Source of the DNA: Tetmemena sp. SeJ-2015
Lineage: Eukaryota > Ciliophora > Spirotrichea > Sporadotrichida > Oxytrichidae
Length of the DNA: 64,000 nt
Direction: 5' to 3'
Assembly: GCA_027382625.1 (NCBI GenBank)
Contig: JAJKFJ010022304.1
Coordinates: 35,120-99,119 of the forward strand
The position numbers and the translations under genes were made by a program. The notes under the pieces are model-generated. The model was not told where the DNA came from, did no database searches, and saw only the letters and a list, made by a program, of their open reading frames with translations. Positions within the stretch are counted from its first letter, which is position 1, and each line of letters starts with the position of its first letter. Below, piece after piece: positions 1 to 64,000 of this stretch.

Positions 1-49
1 ATTCTCATTAATTTCAATTTATAGAAACTTGTGAAAGATTTAGAAATAA

Positions 50-1472
50 GGTGGGAGCACGTATCTCGAAAACTCCTAAAAATCATTCGATCTCGACTAT
101 TCTAGGCCCATCCATCTTTAAGTGAATAACAAAAAAAATGAGTTATTGAGTAAAATTCGAAACCCTTCTTCTGGCTAAAACTTTTATGATAAATCCGAAA
201 TTTTCATTTTTAAATATTATATTATATGTAGAAATGCTCATAATCATGAAATAATTCTTTCTTATAGTATGATATCCCTTTGGCTTTTTGGGTTTTCAAA
301 ATTAATTAGGCCAAATCTATGAGATAATCTTAAACAAATTAGTCTTTATCTTCCAAAGAAGATAGAACATAGTAAAATGTAATACTCGTAATAATTTTTT
401 GGACGATAGTTATTTACAGAATAATTACTCATGCCATCATTCTAAAACTTTAATTATATAGGTAACCATCAATTAAAAGTCTTAGGTTGACTTAGTTAAG
501 CCTTAGAATTAAAGGGGGGGCCTATCCTCGTCATCCACTTTTTTCATGAAAATATTTTAAATCTTAATTCAGCCAAAAATCAGCCAAAAACAATAATTTT
601 TTAGTCCAAATTCAAATTCAAAGGGTCAATCCAGGATATATTCTTTATTTTAGAAAAGTAGCTTTAATTTTTTTAAATAAAAGTCTCTAGATTATCTTTC
701 GGAAAATTTTATTAAAAACTAGCTATATTTTATAAACAAAGTATAGAATACAAAGAAAAGAAATTTTAATAAAATTATTTAGATTTATATAAAATAATAG
801 TTTGTGTTTTATTGGGTTGTTTAAATATAATGAAGATCCTAATAGTTTATGTTTTAATTGAGAGATCTCTGAGCTTCTGAAATATTTTTCTTAAATATAT
901 AATATTATAAATTTTTTATATAATAAATTTTGCAATTTGATATTTTTACAAAATATATATTCATTCAAAGATCTTTTTAAAATACTAAAATAAGGAATAT
1001 GGCTTAGATGGACCCTTTGAATTTGAATTTGGATTAAAAAATTAGTATTTTTGGCTGATTTTTGGCTTGGTCATGATTTTTCATATTTTCATGTAAAAAA
1101 ATTGGATGACGAGGAAAGGCCCCCCCCCCGAATTAAAGAATCTTGCATTTGACTATCTTCTTTGGAAGATAAAGACTAATTTGTTTAAGATTATCTCATA
1201 GATTTGGCCTAATTAATTTTGAAAACCCAAAAAGCCAAAGGGATATCATACTATAAGAAAGAATTATTTCATGATTATGAGCATTTCTACATATAATATA
1301 ATATTTAAAAATGAAAATTTCGGATTTATCATAAAAGTTTTAGCCAGAAGAAGGGTTTCGAATTTTACTCAATAACTCATTTTTTTTGTTATTCACTTAA
1401 AGATGGATGGGCCTGGAATAGTCGAGATCGAATGATTTTTAGGAGTTTTCGAGATACGTGCTCGCCCCCAAA
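50..1472. repeat. Large imperfect palindrome (PAL family, copy 1)
   Basis: The stretch from about 50 to 660 returns as its reverse complement at about 975 to 1472, leaving a central AT-rich spacer of about 300 bp. The arms match with scattered differences; a run of 8 G at 514-521 in the left arm faces a run of 10 C at about 1119-1128 in the right. I saw no frame in it. The architecture (long inverted arms, short spacer) is that of a foldback or MITE-type element. A partial relative lies at 35.8-36.9 kb. It sits just beyond the last recognisable exon of gene 0, so it may be an insertion in one of its spacers. Confidence 0.8.
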
Positions 1473-2539: not shown

Positions 2540-3480
2540 TCATATAGCGGTCAAGGGTGCAATCTCTGAAACTTATTGCTCACTCTTTACTTGCTGCTGT
2601 ATTGTGATAAGTAAGTTGTTGCCATTTCCCTGAGCCCAGGTGATAACTCCGAGATATCATGCTGTGACTCTCGGTACTCAATCTTGGTGTCTTTCGCTAA
2701 ATTTTATTTACGATTCCCTGGTCAGCCTGGTTGAGAATTTCTAGCACAAGTGCAGCTGCCTGAAATATGTCTTTTTCTAAAATCAGATGATCTTCATGGG
2801 TCTCGCACTTGCTAAAGGAAAAAGATTATGGATATTGTATTTGTGGAGCCTTACTGCTACACTCAAGTTGCTTTGTGGGAGTTTATTGCTTTCAGAGGCT
2901 CATCATTTTTGGATTCCTACTGCTAAAAAAGGAAAAAAGTAATGGGATTAAGAGACAACATATTAGCAAGGTTGTTTCTTGGAATTATAGGAAGGCATGA
3001 GGGCAGCGAAATATTTCTGAATTGCTTCAAGTGCAGATCATGGAAGCGACATCAAGTAAGTGATTCAATTTCTGCAGTCGGTAGATTAGCTTGAATGCGA
3101 GTTCACACTCTAGTGTAATATGAGGAGCTTGCTCTCTTATCCTTTGGTTTGATGTAAAGAGTGCATCTCATTCCCCATGAAACCCTCGCAGGATTTGAGG
3201 ACTTTTGAAAATAGTGAATGCTCCATCGGCTGTGTGGACACTACCATTTTTTTCATTTGCTTCGGAGATTTCACTTTGTGGTAGAGTATCAATCCTGTTT
3301 TCAAAAGGGAGATTGACTGAGCATCTAAGCTATGGGTAAAGACAACAGTTAATTCACGAAATGTGGTTTAGATGAACACTCCTTCGAGGCAACTATTATG
3401 AGTCCTTGATACAGTTTTGACTCAATTTTCAGACTCAAAGGTTGTTTAGCCTAGTCTTAGATTCTTTGAACATGTTAATA
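2540..3480 (-). CDS. Gene Q: unrecognised gene embedded in a gene 0 spacer
   Basis: The minus strand carries about 300 codons of convincing coding sequence in several pieces, with frame changes between them. Readable pieces include AKQPLSLKIESKLYQG, KVKSPKQMKKMVVS, FKLIYRLQKLNHLLDVAS, and near the C-terminal side HEDHLILEKDIFQAAALVL followed by NQADQGIVNKIQ. A TGA follows NTAASKE. The helical, charged character suggests a cytosolic protein. I do not recognise the family. The plus-strand ORF at 2809-3000 is its antisense shadow. The block lies between two gene 0 exons and has no counterpart in gene 1, so it looks like a different gene nested in a spacer. The frame changes may be introns, IESs or assembly indels. 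Confidence 0.6.
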
Positions 3481-11400: not shown

Positions 11401-14400
11401 AAACCTTATGCCTTAAGAGAGCAGAATTACTTTATGTCAGACTCATAATGAGCAAGATATAAGAAATCAATTTAAAATATTCTTTGGTATAGTATAACCA
11501 ACGATGCGAGTTTTTTTGTCAGTTTTTCCTCAAATAATATTTAAAAATTAGTTGTTTGAGAAAACAAAATAAGACTGAGCGATTTCTTTTACCTCTGCTT
11601 TTATAAATTGCGAAAGGACAAGCCAAATATATCAGGAAATATAAATTTCATAATTAGTCTTAAATATTTCTAATAGTGTTTTATAAGTTACAGATGGTCA
11701 TATTTTCCTCTCTAGGTTAATTTATATTAATTCAGCAAATATTCTAAATTTAATATTAGTGAGTGATAATGATAAGATTTCTAACATAGCTCGTGGTTTA
11801 GTCAACTTCATCAGGTATAGTAGCTGTAAGAGTATTCTTTAACTTATAATTTAACTTACTATTTGAAATTTATTTAGGAATAAGTTATTTGGTTGTGTAT
11901 AGGTACTCCACTGGGAGGTTTGTGTCTTTTGCCATAAAGTATCCGTTCATCATTCACAATACAAATATAATTCAGTAGAGAGAGGAATTATTCTAATAAT
12001 CAAGGAGATAGTCTAAATTTAATCTAAACTCTATTCTGTGTGAAATTGATTCCATGTCTGTTTCTTTAAATAATTAAGATATTTTAAATTTTAATGGATG
12101 AGAAATCCACCTTCAGAGACACCAAGTACATCATCGAACTTCTCAAGGAGAACCTGTCACACTCACTGCCTCCCTCCACTTGTAAATTCTCTTTGCAGTT
12201 TTCTTTTTAATCTTGCATTCGAAACTGCAAGCTCCTAAACAATAGTTATAATATTTCATAAATCTGTTTGACATCAATTCTCAATGAACTTACTTTCATT
12301 TTAAATCTGGAGCTAGAGAACTTACAAGTGGAGGGAGGCAGTGAGTGTGGCAGGTTCTCCTTGAGAAGTTCGATGATGTACTTGGTGTCTCTGAAGGTGG
12401 ATTTCTCATCCATTAAAATTTAAAATATCTCAATTATTTAAAGAAACAGACATGGAATCAATTTCACACAGAATAGAGTTTAGATTAAATTTAGACTATC
12501 TCCTTGATTATTAGAATAATGAAATTATTCCTAATTTGTATAATAGACAATTGTATTTTGCAAAAATTTCAATAAAGTAGTTGGGATTATCCTCATCTCG
12601 AGTAATAAAATTAAACAATATGGATAAGGCAAATATAATTTATATTTGTAAAGAACGCTTATTATATAAATATAGGAGAAATAAGGAAGTTTTGATTTAC
12701 CTATTAATTGTTGAGAGTGTCTGGGTCTGACCAAGTAACCTTGACCAACATTCTCCTGGACTGAAAATTGACGATCTTGAATTTTTAGTAAACATAGTTT
12801 TCATCTTCATCTCCAGAGAGTGCTAAAATATATTTATGCCAAAGTACGAATATCCTTAGAAACCTTTTTAACTGCGAAGGTCAGAGCCACATTGTTCAAA
12901 GCAGATAAGAATAACTTATTTTTTTTTTTTAAAACACAAAAAAATAAATATCCCCAAATAACATTACTTCCCAAACATTTTTTTCTAAAAATATTTAAAA
13001 GAAATTGTAAAAGAATTATTTAAAAATTGAAAATTTTTTTTTTGAACCAAGGTTTTTGGGACAAACTTTTTTTTTTAAAAAAAATTAAAAAGTTTAATCC
13101 ATTTTTTTAATTTTGGGCAATTTTGAATTTACACACTTATTAAATAATTAAAATTTTTTTGATGTTTTAAAAAATAAATGGAGATTGCCTTCGGTCAATT
13201 GAAATGCAGATTCACCCCTTATCTGTAACTTGTTCGATGTTTAAAAAAATTAATATGAGTTTCTTCTTTAATCATCTTCGTAGCATCTCTCAGCAATGAG
13301 ATATGACTCACGCATTCTTCTTCTTCCTCGTCCTCATCTTCTTTTAAAAGTGTGTCGCTTATAACTCTGTACTGAGCGCTCCCACACCAAAGTTGCAAGG
13401 ATCAAAAGTTATTAGAATTTGAAGCTAAATCGAGTGGTGTAGTTATTATTTAAATTGGACACACTCCAACTGTCACTGATTTATTCCATTTTATTTTAAT
13501 ATCAAATTTTTAAATTCTCTTTTTTATAAAATTCTTAGTATAATTGAGATTCATTCGAAAGACGTTTAATTTTTGTAGTTCCTCAGAAAGTGATGACAAA
13601 TGTATATAATAAACGAGTAGATAGTGGTGTGAACTAAAGTCGCAGAGAGAAAAAATATCCCAAAGTTTTACTCAATTTGGCTTTGCAAAGCACCCTTCTT
13701 CAAACAGTTCAACTCTGATTTTCTTTCTATATAAAAACAGAGATGAGTAGATACAATTTCTTACTTAGTTGAAATGAATTTCTATTTAAATACTTTCGCC
13801 TATGTCTCAAGTGATTATTTATTCCTCATTTGTTCTAAATTTGTAAATATTGTATTTGTGAAGCATCTCTTATGATGAGTTTCATAAATCGGCTACTCAA
13901 GGCAAAAGCGAAATTACTGAGAATGATGTTTTAAAAGTCTTCAAGTTATTACTCTGTGATCTTCAAGTCAATTATTTGTTAAATTTGGTCAACTACAGTT
14001 TCATTCAGAGTTCCCAAGTACGTCAATCCCTAAGAAGCACTGATTTAATTTAATTCTTTTTATTTACATTTACATACTTGAAATTAAATTAAACTGATGA
14101 CATCAATTGCACTATTGAGAAGATTCACAAAGTAGCTAATTAAATTATAAAATATATAACAGGTCTGCCTTCATTCTTGGTATAGTTCCAGTCTGGATAA
14201 TAAAATAAGTGATTGACATTTGAGTAGGCAATTTAATCCTGAGTAGACTAAGAAGGAGGAAGAACGAACAAGTAGTAAATGTAGTCAGTTCTCCTAGAGG
14301 GATCGTACAAGTCAATCAAGGACACTACGACTGGGTGGATTCCTATCTGTTCCACTTTAGTTGGGTAAAATGCGAAGTTGTAAAGAGTCGGTATATACTA

Positions 14401-34800: not shown

Positions 34801-37800
34801 GTTATTATAGAGATAGTTCTCCGCCACCTGTGTTTTGATATCTTTTAGCAAACTCAACATCTATAAAGATTTTTAAGGGCCAAAGACACACTGATTTCCT
34901 GATTTCTTCTGTATAAGTTAAGTTTCTACCAAGGAATGAGAAATTGGGGCTGATGGTACTATATAATAAGTTATTTAAATTTTATTTCAGTTCAAATATA
35001 AGAAAATATATTTTTTATCACAGCGACAAAGCATATTATTATATCTAAAAACTCATTATATATTTTTAGTTAAAATCTCGGATGCGCGACATGGCACAAA
35101 GTCGGCTTGGCAAAGGGTAGGAAGATTGGCTGGCCATTTTTCAGTTATTAAGGTTTAATATTTTCACCCTGAAAGAGATTTCGCTTCTAAAACCATTGAT
35201 GAATAATGTAGAATACTTAATTAAAGGATGTGTGAGTTAAGGTGAGCTCTGAACCGTGCGAGAAGAGCACTAACACTCAGCTTGGATCCCGTATTCTAGA
35301 TTAATGATCCTCTCTCTTCGAATAGTATGCCTTGCAAGGATTAATGATAGTTGTTCAAATCGAAAAAGTAACTTAGAGAGAGAAAAATAGATCGGCTCTT
35401 TGGCACTATTCAGCCAAACTACTTACATAATTCTACACTATATCATTTAAAGATATTACCTAATCCCTAAAAGTATCCTAGAGATTGACAGGAGGTCATT
35501 AATTTTTCCTTCTTTAAGTCTAATAAGCAATAACATATGATTTTTGGCTTAGATTGGTCAATTCAGAGTTAAAGAGCTCGGAGAGGTATTATAGGTGCGA
35601 GGGTGTTGCTAGTTAAGATTTTACACATACCAAAGATGCTGGATATAAAGAGTAATTAGCCATCCTATTTTTTTCACCACGAGTTTTAAGTTATTACCTG
35701 AAGCAAATTATTTGACTTTTAAGAATAAAAATACTCTGGTAATTTAGTAGGTTAAACTTTTTTAATAATAGTCAATGTAGTCAGGAACATTAAAGCACTT
35801 AGTCATCATCTGTTTTATTAATATATTTTAACAGTAGTGGGGGATCTTTCTTCGTCCTCCACTTTTTTTTAAGAAATAGTGTCCTACATGGTATGAAAAA
35901 TCACTGTTAATTTTAGCAATAAAATTTTGCACAATAAATACCACCATTTGTTAAGGCAGTCCAAAATTTTCAAACTATTCAATAGGTCTTGTCAATGAAC
36001 ACATTTTCTTTCAATTAGAAAAATTTTTGTACTCCTCGAAGAAATAATTTGGCGGATTTTAGTAAATATTCAAAATTAAATTTTTTAAAGGAATGCCATA
36101 ATATTCATTTAGGTGAGATATAATTGAATGCATTGCACAAGTTAATTAAATGAGTATCTTTAACTGCAAAACAATTAATAAAAATATTAAAACTCATTTA
36201 ATTAATTTTCTTCCATTAGCTAATGTGCTCTTCATTATTAGTCTTCCTGAAAAGCATAGTCTTAGCTAAAAATTATATATAAATTTTATTTATTCTAAAA
36301 TTTCATTTTATTTTATTAAAAATCTATATTGTGTCTTTTATAGTTTGCATGTAATATTATCTGCAATCCTCATTTATTATACGTTCTCTGTTAACTAAAT
36401 TCTTCAGAATTTGGATATCTAAGCCTTTACTGTTTATCCAGCAAACAGCATACTTATAAAGAATTCCTTCAATACATCAATAGTACCTAAACTTGTTTTT
36501 TTATGCATAGATATTTTTTAGATGAATTAATTTTTTATCTTCTAGTGAATGCAAAACTTAATAATTAATCATTTAGGTATACAAATTACAACAGTCTTTT
36601 TGCATATAAAGTTGTCTAAAAATCAAATACTTCATCTTTTGTAACTTTACACTAGGCTATTTTTAAAAATCGAAGCTAAATTTTACTAAAATTAAAAAAG
36701 GTATATTATAGAAAATGGAGTAGAGGCTAAGTCTGAAATTGAATTATTATGGACTAAAAATTGGTATTTTTGGGTAATTTTAGTGGATTTTCGGTCTTTT
36801 CGCATGAAAAGGAAAATGGATTGAACGGAGATAAGGCCTCCTCATTCTCCCAAAAAAGGGAAGACGAAAATTTAAAAACTATTGAATACTTTTTAGTCCA
36901 TTTTGGAATTCCTTCTGAAGGTAAAAACTTTTTATGAAAAATCTCACTCTATTATTTTAATTGTTTATTAAGATTAATTCTGGTTGAATTCTTCACTTAA
37001 TTTAATATAAAATATTTAAACTTTCAACGATCTTTGAGAAAGATTTAAATTTTTTTAATCTAGAAGTAAAAAGATCCTATTTTCTTCCAATAAGTCAATG
37101 ATTCAATTTATTGTAAAAAATATCAATTTTATTAGCATAATATCGTTTTAATTCTCCTTTATAAGGAAATTTTTAAGTTTTAACTCTCAATTTATTAACT
37201 TCTTTACCTTTTTTAATAAGAGCATTTTAAAATTTTCGTTTAACATTGACATTAAATAAAATCTTGGAATTTTCATTATAAGCTACTAGAAGATTTCTCT
37301 CTTTTACTTGGATCCGATCAGATCCAACTGGGAATAATGGACGGTGTCAGCTTCATTTAACAAGATACTTACAAAAAGGATTAAATAGTGGATTAAAAGT
37401 ATATAATACATGATATATGTAATAAATTCAATTATTAAAGGCATCACCTTTTGTTTTAGCATTTAGTAATACTTTAAAATTCTCTTCAGTTAATATTCGA
37501 AGAAGTAAAGGTAATAATCAATTTAGGTTCCATATTAAAGAACAAAAATATGTAAGACTGATAAGATTTATAACAAATTAAGATTGTGATTTTCATCACT
37601 ATTTTAGATATAAATTTAAAAAATATTTAGAATATTTAACTATTATTATATAAAAATTAATTCATGTTATAGGTAAGAGTGAAGTTCGGTTTTATTGGGT
37701 AAATAAAGAGTTCAATTTAGCACAAAAGCTGGGACAATCCATTTGGCTACATATTTATTATTACTAAGTGTGAATACTAATTATGATAAATTTATGCGTT

Positions 37801-51239: not shown

Positions 51240-51662
51240 AGTATTTAAATAGCTGAAATTTTAAATAAAAAAAGAGAATTAAATTAGTTTTTAAATTAAA
51301 ATGGAATAAATCGGGGCAGTGAAGTGTGTCCAATTTAAATATTAATTAACCATTCGTTCAGCATAAATTTTAAAACTTTTTATCCTTGCAACTTTTGTGT
51401 GGGAGAGCTCAGTAAAAGTTATAAGTGAACAAGTTTAAATCAAAATGATGAAGAGGATGAAAAAGAATGCGTGAGTCAATCTCGTGCTAAGAGGTGATGT
51501 GGAGATTTTTTAAAGAAAAACTATATTAATTTTTTTTTCCCCATCGAAAAAAAGCTGCAAAAATCAAAGGGGGGGGAAACTAGTTTAACTGACACCATTT
51601 TGCAACTTCCCCTTTATTATTTTAACCAATCACCGATTTTAATTAAAATTCCAACTATAATA
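51240..51662 (+). mobile_element. Family A element, copy A6
   Basis: Ends TATTTAAATAGCTGAAATTT (left) and AAAATTCCAACTATAATAAT (right), matching the family's inverted termini. The interior follows A1 but with extra homopolymer bases near 51530-51590, which break the frame. Confidence 0.75.
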
Positions 51663-53161: not shown

Positions 53162-53729
53162 TATAGGGTGAATATGATTACATGATCGTGGATTTGGCTA
53201 TTAGAAATAGATTGGTCGTTGAGTCTTTGTTGAGTGATTTCGTATTATATTACGCTTTTAAAATATTCGAGTTAATTTAATTTTAAGTCTACCTCACAAC
53301 TACATCTTAACTCAATAACCATCATCAACAACTACGCAACATCAACAACTAAAAACCCAATTTGAAAGTGACCTCTGAAGAGGCAAATGCCTAGGATAAG
53401 TAAGGCATCACCCCTCCCGATCAACAGAGACTCATCTTCACCTGGCAAGCTCAAAGTGTTACAAAAAGTATGCTTGGATTTGCGTACTTTTGAACAGCAT
53501 TTGCAAAGAGATTAACATCATACGCAAGGAAATACCGCACTGACTACAACATCAAGAAGGAGTCTACTTTCACCCACAACTACCCACCCCCTTGAGCTCG
53601 CTCCCTCATTAATTTAAAATACATAATCAATTAAAACTATCTCTAATTTAATATATATCACTTTTTTTAAGAACTATATCTTGATTAGGTTTTGCCAATC
53701 CTCGATCATGTAATCATATTCACCCTATA
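53162..53729 (+). mobile_element. Short TIR element carrying a ubiquitin-derived frame (copy 1)
   Basis: The left terminus TATAGGGTGAATATGATTAC ATGATCG is repeated in reverse complement at the right end; the first 27 bp are exact and the match continues to about 36 bp with small differences. Size 568 bp. Between the ends lies a frame that matches ubiquitin (next entry). A TATA-like duplication may flank it. Confidence 0.85.
53291..53595 (+). pseudogene. Ubiquitin-derived reading frame inside the TIR element
   Basis: The plus strand from 53291 reads LKVTSEEANAQDKQG and GITPPDQQRLIF, to a TGA at 53491-53493. Another frame at 53539-53595 reads TDYNIKKESTFTHN then PPP and TGA. Ubiquitin has KIQDKEGIPPDQQRLIF and SDYNIQKESTL. 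About 100 bp extra separates the two parts, where ubiquitin has only AGKQLEDGRT. The C-terminus runs into THNYPPP, so the conjugating Gly-Gly end is gone. It cannot be normal ubiquitin: it is either a relic or a changed ubiquitin-like protein. The N-terminal half (MQIFVK) is not recognisable. Confidence 0.75.
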
Positions 53730-53734
53730 TTAGT

Positions 53735-54515
53735 AGTTAAAGATTTCAAACTATAATGTAAATCCTAGATAATTTCTTTATTAAGTAATTTATCTTTATG
53801 CAAATTTATTTTTAGGCATTAGATAACCCAAAATTATCTGGCTAAAATTAGACCATTGACAAATATATAAAAAAACAGATAGAAAAAATAAATCTAAAAA
53901 ATAAATGTGCAAAATAAAAAACTAAACACAATAAGGTGTTATTTATTCGAAGCAAATATGTAAATATTTCATCAGAAAAATTAAAACCAAATTGAATAAA
54001 TATCAATAAAATTAAATACTTTAACTATTTAAAATTTTAATTTAAATCATTGATTTTGTTTTCTAATTTATAAGTTATAGTGTGATAATCGTTAAATCTG
54101 AGTAAAATAAATTTTCCATTCATCTATAGCTTTATTTTTTATGTTTATGTTCTATTAAAATAATTTTCCCCTCTTCAATGCTTAAGTTTTGACTACAAAT
54201 TAAAATTGTTGTAAAATATAAATTTCTTTATATTTTTGAATAATCAGATAATCAACTTTATTCACAAGCAAAAATTAAAAATCAAAATAAGTATAAAGTA
54301 TGTAAATTTATAATGAAAAATAGTACATTTAAGCAATAGATTGTATTGTTGAAAAAATAAAATCAAAAACTAATTTGATATCTTAGACTCATAAAATGTA
54401 CTATGAATTATATCAATCAAAATTTATTATAATAAATTTTTTTTCAATATTCTTAAATATGGCTGATTTAATCATAAGAAAAATTATCTCTAAAAAAGAT
54501 GAATTTTTAATTAAA
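53735..54515. other. AT-rich, no gene seen
   Basis: Nothing recognised. Confidence 0.5.
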
Positions 54516-54519
54516 GAAT

Positions 54520-54935
54520 TAAAAAATGAAAGTTAAACGGTGAGAGTTCATTGCAAAATAGATTCAATTTATATATTAATATAAGATGAAATAAATATTT
54601 AATAGTTTAAATATCATCACATAAAAAAGTTATTTAATAATTCTATTTCTAACAAAATATATAAAATACTTATAAACTCTTTTTTCTTTGCAGCTTTTGA
54701 GTAAGAGAACTCTTTTTAAAAAAAGTGCAAACTTTTTGATAAGTATATGAATGGAAAAAGTTGATGAATTCTAGTGGTATTTCTTTACTACAGAGGGTTA
54801 GTAAGAAGATTCTGAAAGAGAAAAATAATATTAATTTTTGTTTGGCTATCAACTCATCTGGAGACAGGCAAGAGACATGAAATTGCAACCCTGCATTTAT
54901 TTTTTAATTAATCACCTATTTTAATTTTATACTCA
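54520..54935 (+). mobile_element. Degenerate family A element, copy A7
   Basis: Recognised by order: a GCAGCTTTTGAGTAAGAG-type core, a CTACAGAGG, ATATTAATTTTTG, GCTATC and the GAAATTGCAACCCTGCATTTA end. The acidic-run frame is lost. It ends about 30 bp before the second ubiquitin element. Confidence 0.55.
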
Positions 54936-54964
54936 ACATAAGTAAAATAAATAAATTAAGTAAA

Positions 54965-55575
54965 TATAGATGAATAGGAATACATGAAAGAGGGTAAGCA
55001 AAACCTAATCAAGAGAGAGAACAGTAGAAAAGTGGTATATATTAAATTAGATATAGAAACATTATGTTTTTAAATTTAATGAAGGAGCCAGCTCGAACAA
55101 GATCGCTATTAGAATCATCATGAATACCACCTTAGTCTAGCTTTTAGTTTAAGTGTCTGTGCTTTTAAAAGTTATCTGTTGAATTTGAAAGTAGACTCCT
55201 TTTTTATGTTTTAATAGGTGAGGGTTCGGCATGCTCTCAATGAAGATCTTGCTCTTGATGTTGTTCAAAAGTATGCAAATGGAAAAATAATTTTTTTAGC
55301 TCTTTGAGCTTGCCAGCTAAGATAAGTCTCTATTGATCTGAGAGGTGCCTTACTTGTCCTGGACGCTTCCCAAATCGGCTTCGTACTTCAAGTTTTTGAG
55401 CTAGAGTTTGTTATCGTAGATGTGATAGTTGTAGTAGTTGTAGCTGTTGTATTTGACATTTAATTTAAATTTTCTCTTTATTTAAAACGTAATATATTAA
55501 GAATCTCAAGGACTCAATCAGCAAATATTTCCAAAGAAAAACAAGCCACTATCAACTAAGCATATTCAACCTATA
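54965..55575 (-). mobile_element. Ubiquitin-carrying TIR element, copy 2 (inverted, decayed)
   Basis: Reverse-complement relative of 53162-53729. Ends: TATAGATGAATAGGAATACA on the left and AAGCATATTCAACCTATA on the right. On minus, DQQRLILAGKLKEL is readable at about 55300-55345 and the ubiquitin-type NIKKE...ST region has decayed to HKKGVYFQI-like frames. An extra stretch of about 60 bp lies near 55080-55190. Confidence 0.7.
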
Positions 55576-55824: not shown

Positions 55825-56243
55825 TATAGCTGAGAATTTAATAAAAAAGAGAATTAAATTATATATAAATTAAAAATGGAATAAATGCAGCGGCAGTTGA
55901 AGTGTGTCCAATTTAAATAAATAATATACATACAAACCATTCCGATTCACCATAGAATTCTAAGAACTTTTCATCCTTGCAACTTTTGTGTGGGAGCGCT
56001 CTGTCAAGAGTCATAAGTGACACAAGTTTTAATGAGGAGGACGATGAGGATGAAGAGGAGTGCGTGATTCATATCTTGCTGCTGAGAGGTGCTACGAAGA
56101 TGATTAAAGAAGAAGCTCATATTATTTTTTGATAAGCTATCGAACAAGCTACAGATCGAGGGGTGAATCTGCGATTTCAATTGACACGAAATTGCAACTC
56201 TCCATTTATTATTTTAATCAATCACCGATTTTAATTTAAATTC
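55825..56243 (+). mobile_element. Family A element, copy A8 (well preserved)
   Basis: Left end TTATAGCTGAGAATTTAAT, right end AAATTCCTACTATAAT. The internal frame reads SKNFSSLQLLCGSALS, RVISDTSFNEEDDEDEEE, then LLLRGATKMIKEE, one TGA, then QAIEQATDRGVNLRFQ. This agrees with A1 at most residues, so the frame has been kept over the time separating the copies. Confidence 0.8.
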
Positions 56244-56574
56244 CTACTATAATACAACGAATACAAAGCAGTTTAAAAATTTGAAACTTCTTCTCCCTAA
56301 AATATTAATCTCCTATAATTTGTTACAGACCTAAAATACGATTACACTCTCAGTAGATTTAACATCGCTGCTGCTTTGAATACAACAATCACCATCACTA
56401 TTTAAATATTATACCATTTTTTATTATTAGTGATATTAACAAAATAATGCCAATAAAAGTATAAATAATAGTACAATATCTCACAAAATTAATTATTTAT
56501 TTTTAATTATTTATAACATAATTTTTTCAATAAAAAATATTAAAATTCTTTTAATTTTACTTTATTTTAACATT

Positions 56575-56989: not shown

Positions 56990-59300
56990 GATCTCAATTT
57001 TTAGAGCTAATCAAAAGTAAAAATGTTGCTTTATTAAAATTTTGGGGGGGGGGACGGGAAGTGCACCTCCCCCCTTTTTATGGTCAAAATAGCTCAAAAA
57101 TCGTCCATATAAGCCGAAATTGGCAAAAATGCCCAAAAATTTAAGAGATTTTGACCCTTCGAAATTCCTTGAGGGTCAAAAATTTCATGAATTTCAATTT
57201 TTTTTCAAAAATGTCTATTTTTGTAATTAAGTCTTATTTTGATGAAATACCTTTCATGTTTTTGGACGCCCCATCTTCTTTTAATGACGGATTCACATTT
57301 GAACTCCTATATTCTTCTTCAAAATGTGAGCCTAAGAAATGATTTAAAAAATAGGGGGAAATTTATTCCCGAAATTGATTTAAGAATTTAAAATCCCTAT
57401 ACCCAAAATGTAAAAAGCTTGCTAATTTTTAAAAAAATAAAATTTAGCAAAACCTTCTTTTTTAAAGTCAGAGTAAAAAACCAAATCGCAATAGAGAATT
57501 ACTTGATTTTGGGAATTAACTTCCCATATTTTTTAAGTAAAAAAATTTGGGATTTCTATGTTGGAAGGACGTAAAAAATGCAATTTTTTATAAAAACTGA
57601 TGGCTGTTTTTAACTTTATAATATATAAATATATATTATATTATTTATATATATATATAATATAAATTTTTTGTGGCTAATTTGAAATTTTGCGGGGTAT
57701 GATCTTTCCCCAAAATTTCCCCTATTTTTTTTAAAATTTTTTTAGGGAAAATTTTTTAAAAAATTTTTGCGAGAATTTTTAAAAAAAAATTTAAAAAAAA
57801 AGAAATTTGCCCCTCAAAAAATTTTTCAAATGAAAAAACTCTTAATTTTTTTTGCTTTTTTTGGCCCGTTTGGGCCCTTTAAGGTAATTTTTGGACGTTT
57901 TAAACCAAAAAAGGGGGGGAGGTGCCTTCCCCCCCCCAAAAATTTTTATTATAAGTTGTTACAAAAATTTTAATTTTTAAAAATATTTTAGAAAAAAGAA
58001 AAATTAAAAATGGTTAAAAGGGGTTGGAGTTGTTTTTTTCCCAAATTTTAAAAAACCCCAAAACTTTATAATTTTTAATAAAGGGTGAAATGATAGAAAA
58101 TGTTAAATAGGTTAATTTTAAAAATTTCTGATAGAGCCCTTGCCCTGTAATTAAAGTATATTAGTTTAAAAAAACTTTTTAAATTTTAATGTCTACTACA
58201 AAAACATAACAACTACAAAACTCAATTCCAATTTAAAAGGCGCCCATAAAAGAGGCAACGTCCGGAAAAGGAAAGGGACCCCCCCGATCAACAGAGTCTT
58301 TTTCCCAATCAAAAAAGAAGGTTTACAAGAGTATCCCATATTTTAAAATATCATCAAAAGATTTGAAATTTTTTGGGGAAAAAATTCTCAGTGATAAAAC
58401 TTCAGAAGGATTCTCCCCTCCCCCTAAAAGATCTGTTTAAAGCGAGCCCTAAAAAAAAAGTAAAGAAGTATTTTAAAAAATTTCACGCTGATATGTGGAG
58501 ATGATCTCTTTTAAATTTAAAAACATAATGCTTTTAAAACTATTTCTAATTTAATATATACCAATTTGATCGAGAACTAAATCTTTATTAGGTTTTCCTT
58601 ACCCTTTATCATGCAATCATATTCACCCTATAAAAAGAATTGTGTATTTAAACTTGTTTTTGAAACACTATTCTCATTATATTTAATTGGGCCCTCTGTT
58701 TTATTTTTAATCAGTAAAAAATATAATCCAAATAAAATGCAGTTAAAAAAAACAAAAATTTTAAGAAAAAAATTTTTTAATTGATTAATTTTTTTAAGAA
58801 ATAAATTAAAAATTTAATTTTTTTTGTTTGAATTGGATGTTGCCTTTTTTTTCCCCTTAAGTTTTTTATTTTTCCTTAAAATTTTTTTTTTTGGGAAAGG
58901 AAAATTTTAAACCCCCCTTTTTTAAAAAATAAAATTTAAAAGGAAGTTTTCTCAGAAATTATTTTTTATAAAACTTTCCCAAAATTCAAAACCCAACTAA
59001 TTTTTCCCAAACATTTTTTTAAAATTTTAAAAAGGGATAACTAAGGTAAAAAAAAATTTTACTTTTCCTTTGCAAATTTTAAATTTAAAAGGAAAATTTA
59101 AAAAATTTTTTTAAATATAAAAGGGAAAATAAATCTTTCAAAAAATAAGAAGGGGTTTAAAATAATTTTTTCCCTTTAAAAGGAAAAAAAAATTTAAAAG
59201 GTTTTTTGGAAAACTACCAAAATTTTTTTTGGGAAAAAAGGGGAAAAACCCTTTTAAAAATTCCACTTGAAGAATTTATTTATTCTCAACATTGAACTTG
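56990..59300. other. Low-complexity, homopolymer-inflated region
   Basis: Runs of A, T, G and C of 6-10 bases follow one another, including GGGGGGGGG near 57047 and a CCCCCCCC run near 57929. A pure (AT)n tract lies at about 57625-57660. Where the region overlaps a known sequence (the third ubiquitin element) it differs from the other copies mainly by homopolymer lengths. This looks like poor consensus more than biology. The short ORFs here (57151, 57767) are not credible. Confidence 0.6.
58100..58632 (+). mobile_element. Ubiquitin-carrying TIR element, copy 3 (degraded)
   Basis: From about 58190 it follows copy 1: CATAACAACTACAAAACTCA, AAAAGAGGCAA, CGATCAACAGAGTC, and the right terminus CATGCAATCATATTCACCCT. 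Frames are destroyed by homopolymer changes. The left end is uncertain. Confidence 0.6.
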
Positions 59301-59697: not shown

Positions 59698-62600
59698 TGT
59701 TTGCAAGAATTATTATAAATAGTGTTGCAAATGGTGTCTGTCGATATGAAACAAGCCGCTCGGATCTGTATCTTGATTTATACCTAATCAAAACTTAACA
59801 AGAGGAACCTCTTTATTATTTGTTCTTATTTACAACACCTCTTGCTAGGATATGACATTCACACATTTCTTTCAATTTTAATCCCATTCTCATTAATACT
59901 TGATTTGCTAATAATTATTTACTGGGCATTCCTACACAAAGCTGCAAGCATAAAAAATTCTACAATTGTATGCTGGATCAAATGGTGAAATTTTGATTCA
60001 ACATTTTAAAGCAATCAACTACCACTTTTTTTACTTTAAATTAATTCCGTTTGTCAATAAATATTTAGTTAAATTAAAAAATTTATCGAAAATTGTTTTA
60101 ATTTCAAAAATGTCAAGAAATTAATAAATTTAGGCATTAAGATTTTGATATAGCGTTATTTAATATTTTAAATTTTATGAAAAATTTTCCTATTCCCTAT
60201 TTCCAAAACCAATTAGTAAAATATAATTTGCGTTTTAATAAATAATAATAATATACTCCTACAAACTAAATGACACAATTTATTAATTTTACATCTGCCA
60301 ATTAAATACTCATTGAATAATATTTTCAATACAGCACCTTACTTTGCTACTCCGCTTCCTTTACAGATTTAACTTTACTAAGACGAAGCTAATGCTTAAT
60401 TAAGAATTCCTTAAATATAAGATGACTAAAGAGATAAATTTATTCTTTCAATATATCCTGTACATATTGAAGAACTCGATAGTTCAATAGTAGACGGAGT
60501 TATCTTTATGAATCCAGCAAAGTATCAAAAGATTGGCACATACTCTATGTAATTTACTTTAAGTGATCAGAATAATAAACCTCGATCTCAATCATTCTTT
60601 TTAATTTGTCTATTATTCACGCTGAGCATTTAAGTTCTCCCGAATATTATAAAAAATTTATAACACAGAATTATAGATATTATAATTAAGTCTAAAACAA
60701 AAATATGATAATTTTTGTCTTATTTAATTTAGACTCTTCATGATGAGTCATTAGATTATATTTATAATCTGCATTGAGTTTCAAAGTTTAGTTACATTAG
60801 CAAATATATATATTTAAATTTGGGCACTCTAATAATTTTAAATAAGAAGATTTTGCATGAAGGATAGAAATTAGGGATATTTAGCTCAGAAATTAAAAAA
60901 GCAGAGTCAAAAAGAGTATTTTTATGAGTCAAGCAGCAACCCTCAAATTATTTTTAAAGTGAGTTTAATTTGCTCTGGTTTTCTGACGATATCAATATTT
61001 TATAAATCCTGAAGTTTAAAACTTCCTTATTTTTTAATTTCAGATTATAATGAAATTTAATTAAAAACTAGAAGAAGGTGCAAATTCGCAACCGCGATTG
61101 CATATAATTATTGGTAACTTGGATATTTTATTTATATGTTGATTAATCCACTTTAGATTATTATATGAAGTTCTCCAGAGAGATTTGATAAATGGAAGTT
61201 TCATTTTTCCAGACGACTCTTTAATAATTAAAGACACATTTATATCGCCTAGAATAACAAGAATTTTTAACAACGGTTCTGTTTTAATTCAGTTTAACCA
61301 CGCAATAAACACTTTATTTTATTTCTCCTTCAAATATAAGTTGGATAAAAGATATAAAGAGTTTGTCTTTCAAAGTATTTAATTACGGTTTGGAGCTTAA
61401 AAATTAAGTCAGATCTTGGAATGTTTCATACATACTCAATAGAAATCTTTTAATTAACCTCAACTTTTCAGATCCATCAATTATTTCGAGTGGGCAAGCG
61501 TTTTCTTTACTCTCTATTTTATAAAATAGCTTTGCTTTCATACATGTGAATAACTAATTTTATTTTTTTTATTATATAATTAAACTATCAATAAAATTAA
61601 TCCGCATCTAGCCAATTAAATTTAATAAACATGATTGCAAATTTATTTAATAAATTTGAAATCATGTTTAATTAAGTAAATTTTGGCAAAATAATTTTAT
61701 TCCTGTCTGTTTTTAATCAGAAAGCTTTATTATATAGCAGCATTAAATATGCATATTATTGCTTAATTTTTTTAAAAACAAAATTTATACAAATTAATTA
61801 AAGAAGAGGTTTAAGTTTTTTATCAAATTTATTGTTTTTGATATATATATATTCTTCAATCATGATTCTTAAATAAATTTTTCTTATTAACATTCCATAA
61901 TGTACTCTAAACTACTTATATATAAATATTTCATTATAAAATTTTTAAAAAGAAATTTTTTTTAATTTTATAAATTTTAAATTTGATTCAATTTAGCCAT
62001 TTTATTAGATCACTATTAGATTTGATGAAGTGCATTTCTTTAGCTCTAGCTATGGAAGTAAATACATCACAGTTTAAAAAGGTCAAGTAATTTCTAAAAA
62101 GATCCCTCCTCAATAAGACGAAAGCTAAACTATTCAAGATATCAAAAACTTAGCGAGTTCGACTAGTTCGGGAATCCAAGCTCTATCTTTCGTCACTTTA
62201 AGTATGAAATAAAATCAATATTTTTTATAATGAGCATATTCTTAGGAGTTTCAATGAAATTGCTTTGGGAATTACTAAGTTTGCTGCAACTTATCGTGAA
62301 CTTAAATTTGGTTAACTTGAGTTTCCCAGCAGGGGTCACTGCATGTTTTCAAAACCTATTTGATATTTCCAACATGAATATTATCCCGAAATCATTTATT
62401 GATAAAATCATTAACAGTGGTTAAGTAGCTTCGCAAACGCAACTTCAGCAAATTGATATCTTTTAAAATCTTTCTTCTTATTAACACTTTCCTATACTTC
62501 AATTATAATTTATCAAAGTTATGAAAGCACTAATCCGATATAGAATATAGGACTATCAGTTATTGCTTTCCTATTTCTCATAAACCTTTGTAAATTTACC

Positions 62601-64000
62601 TCTCAGTTAATGTTTAAAGGATTTTGAATTTTTTTAATTTTTAAATTTGATTATATTTATTTTAAAATTTTAATTTAAAATTTTTTTTAATTTTTAAAAT
62701 TTTAAAAATTAATTTAAGTCTGGGCTTATGGTGACGTGGCACAAATGAAAAAGGAGTTACGCCTGTGAATTACTTTTAAAACGAATTTAAATATTATATG
62801 CCCTTTTGGGGTTTCTTAATTCCTAACTATTTTATTTTAAAAAAAAAATTTTTTAAATTTAAAAAAAATTGATCCAATTACTTCTAAAATTCCCTTTAAT
62901 TTGATTTATTTTAAAAGGGAAAAAAAAATTTACAAAAAGATCTTTGATGAAGGGATTCTATCCAATTAAAAACTAATTAAATTTGCATTTCATGTCTCAT
63001 CAACTTCAATTCTGTAAGCATCATATAAATTTATCATAAAATATTAAGTAAGCATATTTCTAATATAAATCAAAATTCTAAGAGACTCTATTAAATAAAA
63101 AGAAATTTTTCTTTTAAAAATCTTAAAAAGAATTAAAATTTTTCAAAATTTTAAAAAAATTTAAAAATTTTATTTAAACCTTTTTAAAAATTAATCTTAT
63201 CAAATGAAATTCACAATTAACTTATTTAGATTGACAGTGAGAGTGTTTAAAATAATTTTTTATTTTATTTAAATGAATGTTTCTAGTCTTGATTTAGTGG
63301 TAACAGTTTTTACTCTATCTGCTTACATAGCTGGCTCAATAATGATATTCGTGTATTTGCTTAAACATAAAACAGACTTTACTTAAAAAGATGTCAAGAA
63401 AAGTATTGACACTCTATTCGATAAATTTCTACCTCAATTTATCAAATCTTTCAATTTTTATTAAAAGGAATCTTTAATTTTCATAATCAAGAGTAATTTT
63501 TAAACTACAAGGATTAAAAATGCTATTTATTTATGCCAGTGACTACTTTGACAGTATCATTTTTCATAAGACGATTAATATTTGCAGTGACTCTCACTAC
63601 TCTATCCCAAAACTGCATAATCTAGCTTTTGATTATAATTGTGTTTAATTTACTCCATCTAATCGCTGTTATTGAGAATTTGCACCACTTTAAAACACTC
63701 ACAGATAAAATAATAGAAATTTTCAACGAATCTGCTTTCTAAATATTTCAATATTTTCATTGGAGCAAATTTATTTTTAAATAGTGGTGTATCTTGTAAT
63801 TTTATTGACAGATTTGAATCCTGAATATCGTGATTAAGTAGGTGAGGAAACATTTTGAAAAAGTTCATTGCTATTTATGTTAAAAATAATTAGGATGGTC
63901 GCTTTCATAGCAATTGCTCTATTTAAAATCATCACAAAATTTACAAAAACTCTTTTCATTAAGATAAAAACAAGGGCACAACAAAATATATAAAAAGAAA
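59330..64000 (+). CDS. Gene 3: plus-strand paralogue of genes 1 and 2, C-terminal half, runs off the window
   Basis: Gene-level entry. Plus-strand blocks in order: cadherin-like strand block (59330-59697), a second one (60440-60640), NGSVLIQF block (61180-61560), S..G..ALS block (62030-62210), LLWELLSLLQ block (62230-62490), TM and TLF block (63250-63530), FFIRRLIF and IFNE block (63534-63800) and a final TM helix (63891-64000). The order equals that in genes 1 and 2, but sequence identity to them is low, so this is an older paralogue in inverted orientation. Confidence 0.65.
59690..60080 (-). mobile_element. Degenerate family A element
   Basis: Recognised near its end by CCTACACAAAGCTGCAAGCA, AAATTCTACAATTGTATGCTGG and TCAAATGG, which follow the family in minus orientation. 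The other end is vague. Confidence 0.55.
60435..60640 (+). CDS. Gene 3 ectodomain exon, cadherin-like
   Basis: Plus strand: PVHIEELDSSIVDGVIFM, NPAKYQKIGTYSMQFTLSDQ, NNKPRSQSFFLI. GTYSMQFTLSDQ is the Y.V.V.L.D motif. It then runs into TAA as Gln and low-complexity sequence. Confidence 0.65.
61180..61560 (+). CDS. Gene 3 exon with SPRITRIFNNGSVLIQFN
   Basis: A long frame free of TGA: INGSFIFPDDSLIIKDTF, ISPRITRIFNNGSVLIQFN, FSFKYKLDKRYKEFVFQS, then QILECFIHTQQKSFNQP. PRI..I...G.V.I.F is a pattern I recall from the membrane-proximal ectodomain of these proteins. The minus ORF at 61061-61273 is a shadow. Confidence 0.65.
62025..62215 (+). CDS. Gene 3 exon, Pro-Pro-Gln and S.TSS block
   Basis: Plus strand: SSSYGSKYITVQKGQVISKK, IPPQQDESQTIQDIKNLASS, TSSGIQALSFVTLSMKQNQ. 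Five TAA/TAG as Gln. KKIPPQ followed by a Ser-rich helix and AL.F.T precedes the LW..L block in this family. Confidence 0.65.
62230..62490 (+). CDS. Gene 3 exon with LLWELLSLLQ...VNLSFP signature
   Basis: Plus strand: KLLWELLSLLQLIVNLNL, VNLSFPAGVTACFQNLFD, ISNMNIIPKSFIDKIINSG, then Gln-rich QVASQTQLQQIDIF. It corresponds residue by residue in pattern to LWGLLNALQFVIHMPLLNVN of gene 2. This match is the basis for calling gene 3 a member of the family. Confidence 0.75.
62705..62835 (+). repeat. Repeat C, copy 2
   Basis: Second copy of the 56575-56705 repeat, with the same AGGAGTTACGCCTGTGAATT core. It lies inside gene 3, in the spacer between membrane exons. Confidence 0.75.
63250..63530 (+). 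CDS. Gene 3 membrane exon
   Basis: The ATG near 63274 starts MNVSSLDLVVTVFTLSAYIA, GSIMIFVYLLKHK (one helix), then TQKDVKKSIDTLFDKFLPQ. It matches the SVSSLLALFFMV...TLYEG stretch of gene 2 in place and pattern. Confidence 0.7.
63534..63800 (+). CDS. Gene 3 membrane exon FFIRRLIF / IFNE
   Basis: Plus strand: MPVTTLTVSFFIRRLIFAVT, then LLIIIVFNLLHLIAVIENL, then TDKIIEIFNESAFQIFQ. FF.RRL.F and IFNE are the strongest short motifs of the family. The minus ORF at 63659-63868 is a shadow. Confidence 0.75.
63885..64000 (+). CDS. Gene 3 last visible exon, cut by the window end
   Basis: Plus strand: MVAFIAIALFKIITKFTKTL, then a basic stretch FIKIKTRAQQN. It corresponds to GWSVIGILFF...N.L and the basic loop of gene 2. 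Open to the window end. Confidence 0.55.

Follow-up and report, generated by a model that had tools for sequence, protein, structure and literature searches.

Does a short unit with inverted ends and a piece of ubiquitin reading frame represent a mobile element that captured a host gene and copied itself, and is its cargo a protein or a relic? The unit lies in the window, meaning the whole 64-kb stretch of DNA that was analysed (positions 35120 to 99119 of contig C3079, in a genome of 146 Mb and 5,213 contigs). The account that we consider very probable is that a nonautonomous, Tc1/mariner-like element with terminal inverted repeats (TIRs) took up ubiquitin sequence, was spread by a transposase supplied in trans and carried a broken frame, and that relatives took up 14-3-3 sequence likewise and recombined with it.

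The ubiquitin element in the window

Copy 1 occupies positions 53162 to 53729 on the plus strand. Its 5' TIR (53162 to 53188, plus strand) and 3' TIR (53703 to 53729, minus strand) match exactly over 27 bp, and 33 of 35 positions match when the repeats are lengthened. The 5' repeat begins with TATAGGG, the outer TA being the target duplication. The 568-bp unit and its exact ends were thus found as the initial annotation had described them, as were the inverted copy at a distance of 1.2 kb and a third one, which ends at 58632. Copy 2 (54965 to 55575, minus strand) is a full-length member of 611 bp, old and divergent, with both TIRs recognisable. Copy 3 (about 58079 to 58632, plus strand) is strongly degraded, with a clear 3' TIR and an approximate 5' end. 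Both are old relatives of copy 1. The homopolymer content at window positions 57001 to 59000 is 0.24 to 0.32 against a median of 0.07, three to four times the usual value, which makes the consensus quality there suspect, so some of the decay of copy 3 may reflect a poor consensus. Further exact inverted 20-mers, at most 1.5 kb apart, occur at window positions 1 to 700, 11900 to 12200, 54400 to 54500 and 62600 to 62700.

In what we take to be tubulin genes, TAA and TAG are read as Gln at positions presumed to be conserved. With this code, copy 1 contains ubiquitin-like segment 1 (LKVTSEEANAQDKQGITPPDQQRLIF, 53362 to 53439, plus strand) and segment 2 (TDYNIKKESTF, 53539 to 53571, plus strand). 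The frame originally proposed, reading DKQGITPPDQQRLIF and TDYNIKKESTF, held in that both stretches are present and nominally share a frame, but they are separated by unrelated sequence and by a TGA stop that precedes segment 2. The C-terminal Gly-Gly had been described as replaced. It is indeed absent, and LRLRGG with no more than one substitution was found in 0 of 53 copies; however, copy 1 is an element of about 628 bp that has lost about 60 to 69 bp near 53594, so that the ubiquitin C terminus is missing there rather than replaced. In other copies this end reads VRLRQ, TRLME and similar.

The cargo is derived from ubiquitin. Frames from three other copies (L064, L053 and L078) scored 26.5, 29.2 and 30.8 bits against the Pfam ubiquitin cutoff of 25.4, so the match rests on sister copies; the degraded piece from the window gave no Pfam ubiquitin match by itself. 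Ubiquitin was the sole Pfam family above the cutoff, in three of the four ubiquitin-element frames tested. A ubiquitin search of the same genome found polyubiquitin units on contigs C3473, C2944 and C3415, together with a long further list of places matching mainly residues 26 to 51 (150 scored of 373 candidates). The exact matches shared by 55 elements and the host polyubiquitin had a median of 24 nt and reached 41 nt, compared with 8 to 11 nt in the 3' part of the element, and 40 of the 55 share at least 24 exact nt. Residues 1 to 76 are uninterrupted in the matched host polyubiquitin units, and the two ubiquitin halves of the element are split by about 75 nt of non-ubiquitin DNA. An intron or internal eliminated sequence was rejected as an explanation of this insert, as judged by eye, since removal of the roughly 75-nt GT-AG stretch leaves the frame broken and the AG is not conserved.

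Other ubiquitin-like genes or pseudogenes, covering about residues 11 to 76, are repeated in duplicated segments at loci L038 to L044, L046, L047, L050 and L051 (contigs C3497, C1444, C3645, C3153, C3985 and C811), several with tails like LRLRGGGGQF.

Dispersal, target sites and a second cargo

A DNA search with the 568-bp unit gave matches at all 40 places scored, the window included (of 622 candidates). The relatives are mostly full length, about 628 bp, and contain a segment, near query position 433, that is missing from copy 1. The genome-wide search for the 27-bp terminus that had been suggested was carried out with the exact terminus TATAGGKTGAATATGAWTRCATGAT, which occurs at 178 ends (92 forward and 86 reverse), with 0 and 0 in the reversed control. 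Among the 100 ends listed of these 178, at least 25 inward-facing TIR pairs span 575 to 665 bp. The exact pattern matches 53 of the 106 ends in an alignment of 53 copies, which together with the 178 exact ends leads to a rough estimate of about 178 elements. When 30 genome copies were aligned with copies 2 and 3, the ends and the interior could be aligned and the flanks mostly could not. Some copies have flanks in common (L023/L024/L026, L010/L027 and L002/L007/L008), so not every copy represents a separate transposition.

The initial annotation had named two findings that would speak against capture, a ubiquitin part confined to this locus and termini that flank unrelated DNA at chance frequency. 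Instead, the ubiquitin segment is enclosed by these termini at dozens of places whose flanks are mostly unrelated, and five of six sites picked by the terminus alone (from the 100 ends listed) hold the ubiquitin interior, the sixth being a chimera. Conversely, at 20 ubiquitin-hit loci, which had been selected for long open frames, the terminus (with up to seven errors) lay at the expected distance in 18, on both sides in 15 of those.

Three subfamilies of 26, 12 and 8 copies were distinguished, with mean distances of 0.091, 0.096 and 0.054; the cl2 and cl3 copies were gathered with a ubiquitin query, which biases them toward intact cargo. Four copies (L055 to L058) share 96 to 98% identity. 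A fourth lineage comprises L060 and the two exceptional loci of the 20. It has the same leader, a different TIR (TATACTAGAGAATC) and imperfect inverted ends, and it keeps ubiquitin residues from about 11 to 53, in or beside the ATG frame, with a score above the Pfam cutoff. Its terminus occurs at 14 places, and nine of these lie on contigs that also have ubiquitin hits. The lineages seen all have extra DNA between GKQLE and DYNIQKEST, which suggests one capture prior to their split.

Empty sites were sought by joining the flanks of 51 elements over one TA. These were two 14-3-3 elements and 49 ubiquitin elements, the latter being the rows with a TA at each end and with both flanks available among 66 ubiquitin-element rows, duplicates and partial copies included. 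Two ubiquitin elements have a clear empty site elsewhere within the same locus, L055 with 97% identity over 123 nt and L058 with 99% over 120 nt. The 14-3-3 element of L097 has its empty paralogous site, with a single TA, at window positions 56174 to 56251 (plus strand, 91% over 79 nt), in a dispersed-repeat copy lacking the insertion, as well as in other copies of the repeat. L019 compared with L039 gave 94% over 65 nt, which is supporting, the left flank being only 12 nt long; the matches for L080 and L017 reached only 71 to 79%. Weaker matches in AT-rich sequence were left out of the count, and among the sequences compared the remaining tested elements yielded no usable empty site. The TA target duplication, a Tc1/mariner trait, is therefore present, as seen from the empty sites with one TA. 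The dispersed repeat that served as the target of the element in L097 has several further matches in the window, for example at positions 51584, 32523, 26362 and 2265, and also in many fetched loci.

A sister TIR family, of which three members were read (L097, L098 and L099, on contigs C3230, C1500 and C2037), is about 630 bp long, with TIRs of about 58 bp and a degenerate 14-3-3 fragment. L099 scored 35.0 bits against the Pfam 14-3-3 cutoff of 33.2, and of three pieces of L097, two fell below the cutoff (18.4 and 13.9 bits) and the third gave no match. A host 14-3-3 gene matched L099 with an E value of 3e-10 in tblastn, and in blastn it matched L097 to L099 over 47 nt at 79 to 81%, against nothing below E 0.48 for the ubiquitin-element control. 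The 26-base terminus of this family has 26 exact ends, 16 of which form 8 pairs 597 to 630 bp apart. The chimera mentioned above (L093, contig C1440, positions 2863 to 3214) consists of the left portion of a ubiquitin element fused to the right portion of an element from the 630-bp 14-3-3 family. This second cargo and the chimera joining both indicate that capture was repeated.

A terminus variant, TATAGGTTGAATATGATWAGTGGAGGG, at position 4550 of contig C74 and position 16901 of C142, lies near weak 14-3-3 hits (E values of 0.06 and 0.5) and perhaps marks a second 14-3-3 subfamily. A third TIR family (L028, positions 268 to 746) is about 480 to 500 bp long, with related termini and no named cargo (40 places scored of 471 candidates). 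A tRNA-like motif in this third family was dropped, having no ARAGORN or Rfam match.

Fate of the ubiquitin cargo

The coding state was examined in 53 aligned copies, after 13 of 66 rows had been removed as partial or duplicate. The ATG is retained in 48 of the 53, and the ubiquitin core lies in the ATG frame in 4. Both halves can be read from the ATG in none; with the start disregarded, they share one open frame in 4. No copy has an intact frame or a C-terminal Gly-Gly. The dN/dS test that had been suggested was run on private changes in the three subfamilies (46 copies), giving 98 nonsynonymous to 33 synonymous changes compared with a neutral expectation of 97.9 to 33.1, a ratio of 1.01. By part, the counts were 41:15 in the core (ratio, 0.95) and 46:19 in the second half (1.04); the control, the 3' region in two frames, gave 64:24 (0.90) and 71:16 (1.26). 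Long open frames were rejected as evidence because TGA is the only stop and the window contains 218 stop-to-stop frames of at least 130 amino acids. The broken frames and the neutral decay favor a relic that travels as passenger DNA, the fossil option of the initial annotation.

A history without any transposition, in which ubiquitin pseudogenes arose as retrocopies or segmental duplicates and came to lie between chance inverted repeats, would account for the flanks common to some copies. It is barely credible against the identical ends and internal order, the mostly unrelated flanks and the inward-facing TIR pairs of 575 to 665 bp, and empty sites with a TA duplication, which would contradict it, were found. 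Capture and copying, as originally interpreted, are supported by the recurrence of the ubiquitin segment between the same termini, by the unrelated flanks, and by the TA duplication and empty sites. That the cargo encodes, or did until recently, a functional, Gly-less ubiquitin-like protein expressed from source elements also appears highly improbable, even though most copies retain the ATG and one fourth-lineage frame stays open for 107 codons from its ATG with ubiquitin residues 11 to 53 (L078). Between subfamilies, moreover, the core gave 37:22 nonsynonymous to synonymous changes and the 3' control gave 71:27, a comparison of three nonindependent pairs that hints weakly at older constraint. 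Set against these are the rarity of the core in the ATG frame, the lack of any copy reading both halves from it, and private changes that are neutral overall and in the core. Among fourth-lineage members, codon 2 of L077 is a stop and L060 is frameshifted; L078 compared with L060 gave a dN/dS of 1.04, from only 24 changes. The insert region of about 75 nt matched a known protein in neither of two candidates at an E value of 0.01. The earlier idea of a functional Gly-less protein thus found no support, frames being broken in nearly all copies.

The segment might instead have been kept as nucleotides, through gene conversion with the host gene or RNA-guided recognition, a reading that we consider unlikely. 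It draws on the 40 elements with at least 24 exact nt of host polyubiquitin and on a 26-nt host-matching core with 11 private changes compared with 22.0 expected (rank 4 of 603 windows). The same core ranked only 140 of 603 when all nonconsensus cells were counted. In the 26 copies not gathered by ubiquitin, it had 7 changes against 13.2 expected (Poisson P = 0.049; rank 17 of 603), and in the other two groups, which are biased by their mode of discovery, it was not significant singly. Between the one 14-3-3 element tested and the two host genes set against it, no shared stretch exceeded 12 nt. A relic carried as passenger DNA remains the preferred reading.

In ciliate DNA elimination, small RNAs decide which DNA stays in the somatic nucleus, and this lineage is noted for removing transposons from that nucleus. 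The contigs that are long and rich in repeats probably represent germline DNA. The G4T4 telomere pattern CCCCAAAACCCCAAAACCCC was found at 67 places, in nine cases starting at base 1 of a contig; its reversed control is uninformative, as the pattern is identical when read backwards. The code and the telomeres mark the host as a ciliate, most likely a spirotrich. It is conceivable, if very unlikely, that captured stretches of about 24 to 41 nt identical to polyubiquitin let germline repeats be read as self by small RNAs and so spread better, an idea for which the evidence is the somewhat undermutated host-matching core. If the repeats are eliminated even though parts of them match an essential retained gene exactly, they would provide a test of RNA-guided discrimination between self and nonself.

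Element class and relation to known systems

The proposed sequence of events begins with a nonautonomous TIR element, probably of the Tc1/mariner superfamily (TA target, ends TATAGG[G/T]TGAATATGA), which would have acquired the coding sequence of ubiquitin, probably a single repeat from the host polyubiquitin gene. At an early step, a stretch of about 75 nt would have come to lie within the ubiquitin part and broken the frame. A transposase supplied in trans may then have copied the element to roughly 180 recognisable places, the spreading units holding ubiquitin DNA as a passenger and yielding no ubiquitin. Related TIR elements would likewise have acquired a 14-3-3 gene and undergone recombination with those carrying ubiquitin.

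Pack-TYPE transposons (Pack-MULE, Pack-CACTA, Pack-Mariner and others) are described from plants in the available part of Gisby and Catoni (2022; PMC8903248), according to which the Mariner-type members have TA duplications. They too are nonautonomous TIR elements that hold fragments of host coding genes, some from more than one locus (PMC8903248). By structure, the ubiquitin element fits the definition given in that part of the source, with TIRs, a TA duplication, no transposase of its own and a captured host gene. It differs in that the host is a ciliate, in that one small fragment has been amplified to about 180 copies of MITE size, and in its cargo, ubiquitin and 14-3-3. It is a Pack-TYPE-like, Tc1/mariner-like nonautonomous element outside plants.

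The BogoMITE, or MITIES, of Blepharisma are likewise short elements with TIRs that abound in the germline genome of a ciliate, and they are described as deletion derivatives of a Pogo transposon (PMC9942856); the words ubiquitin, captured, gene fragment and host gene are absent from the part of that text available. TBE and Tec elements are also Tc1/mariner-type germline transposons of spirotrich ciliates but have three open reading frames of their own (PMC9797194), and the words ubiquitin, mite and non-autonomous are absent from the available part of that source. Gene-capturing Helitrons, as far as the sources available describe them, hold captured host gene fragments in fungi and insects too; they are rolling-circle elements, whereas the ubiquitin and 14-3-3 elements have TIRs and TA duplications. 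Among titles and the openings of abstracts, a scope that excludes most subscription journals, no gene-capturing TIR element of a ciliate was found.

In the available part of PMC8903248, cut-and-paste elements that capture genes are treated as belonging to plants; for organisms outside plants, other abstracts name Helitrons, a different kind of element. At least two captured regulatory genes within a single TIR superfamily of a ciliate, together with a chimera of them, would widen the known range of the mechanism, which would then occur in a lineage noted for purging its somatic nucleus of transposons.

No transposase of its own was seen in the element of about 628 bp, in translations read by eye (three frames for 11 copies, six frames for 7). 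DDE_3 transposases are abundant in the genome (150 scored of 921 candidates). None of the 150 places scored lies between the listed termini, as an autonomous partner would. Within 3 kb of a listed terminus, the scored DDE_3 places were on contigs C520 and C1941 only, outside the element and apparently one region seen twice. On contig C3327, termini of the superfamily at positions 3066 and 9766 face inward, 6.7 kb apart, and may bound an autonomous element.
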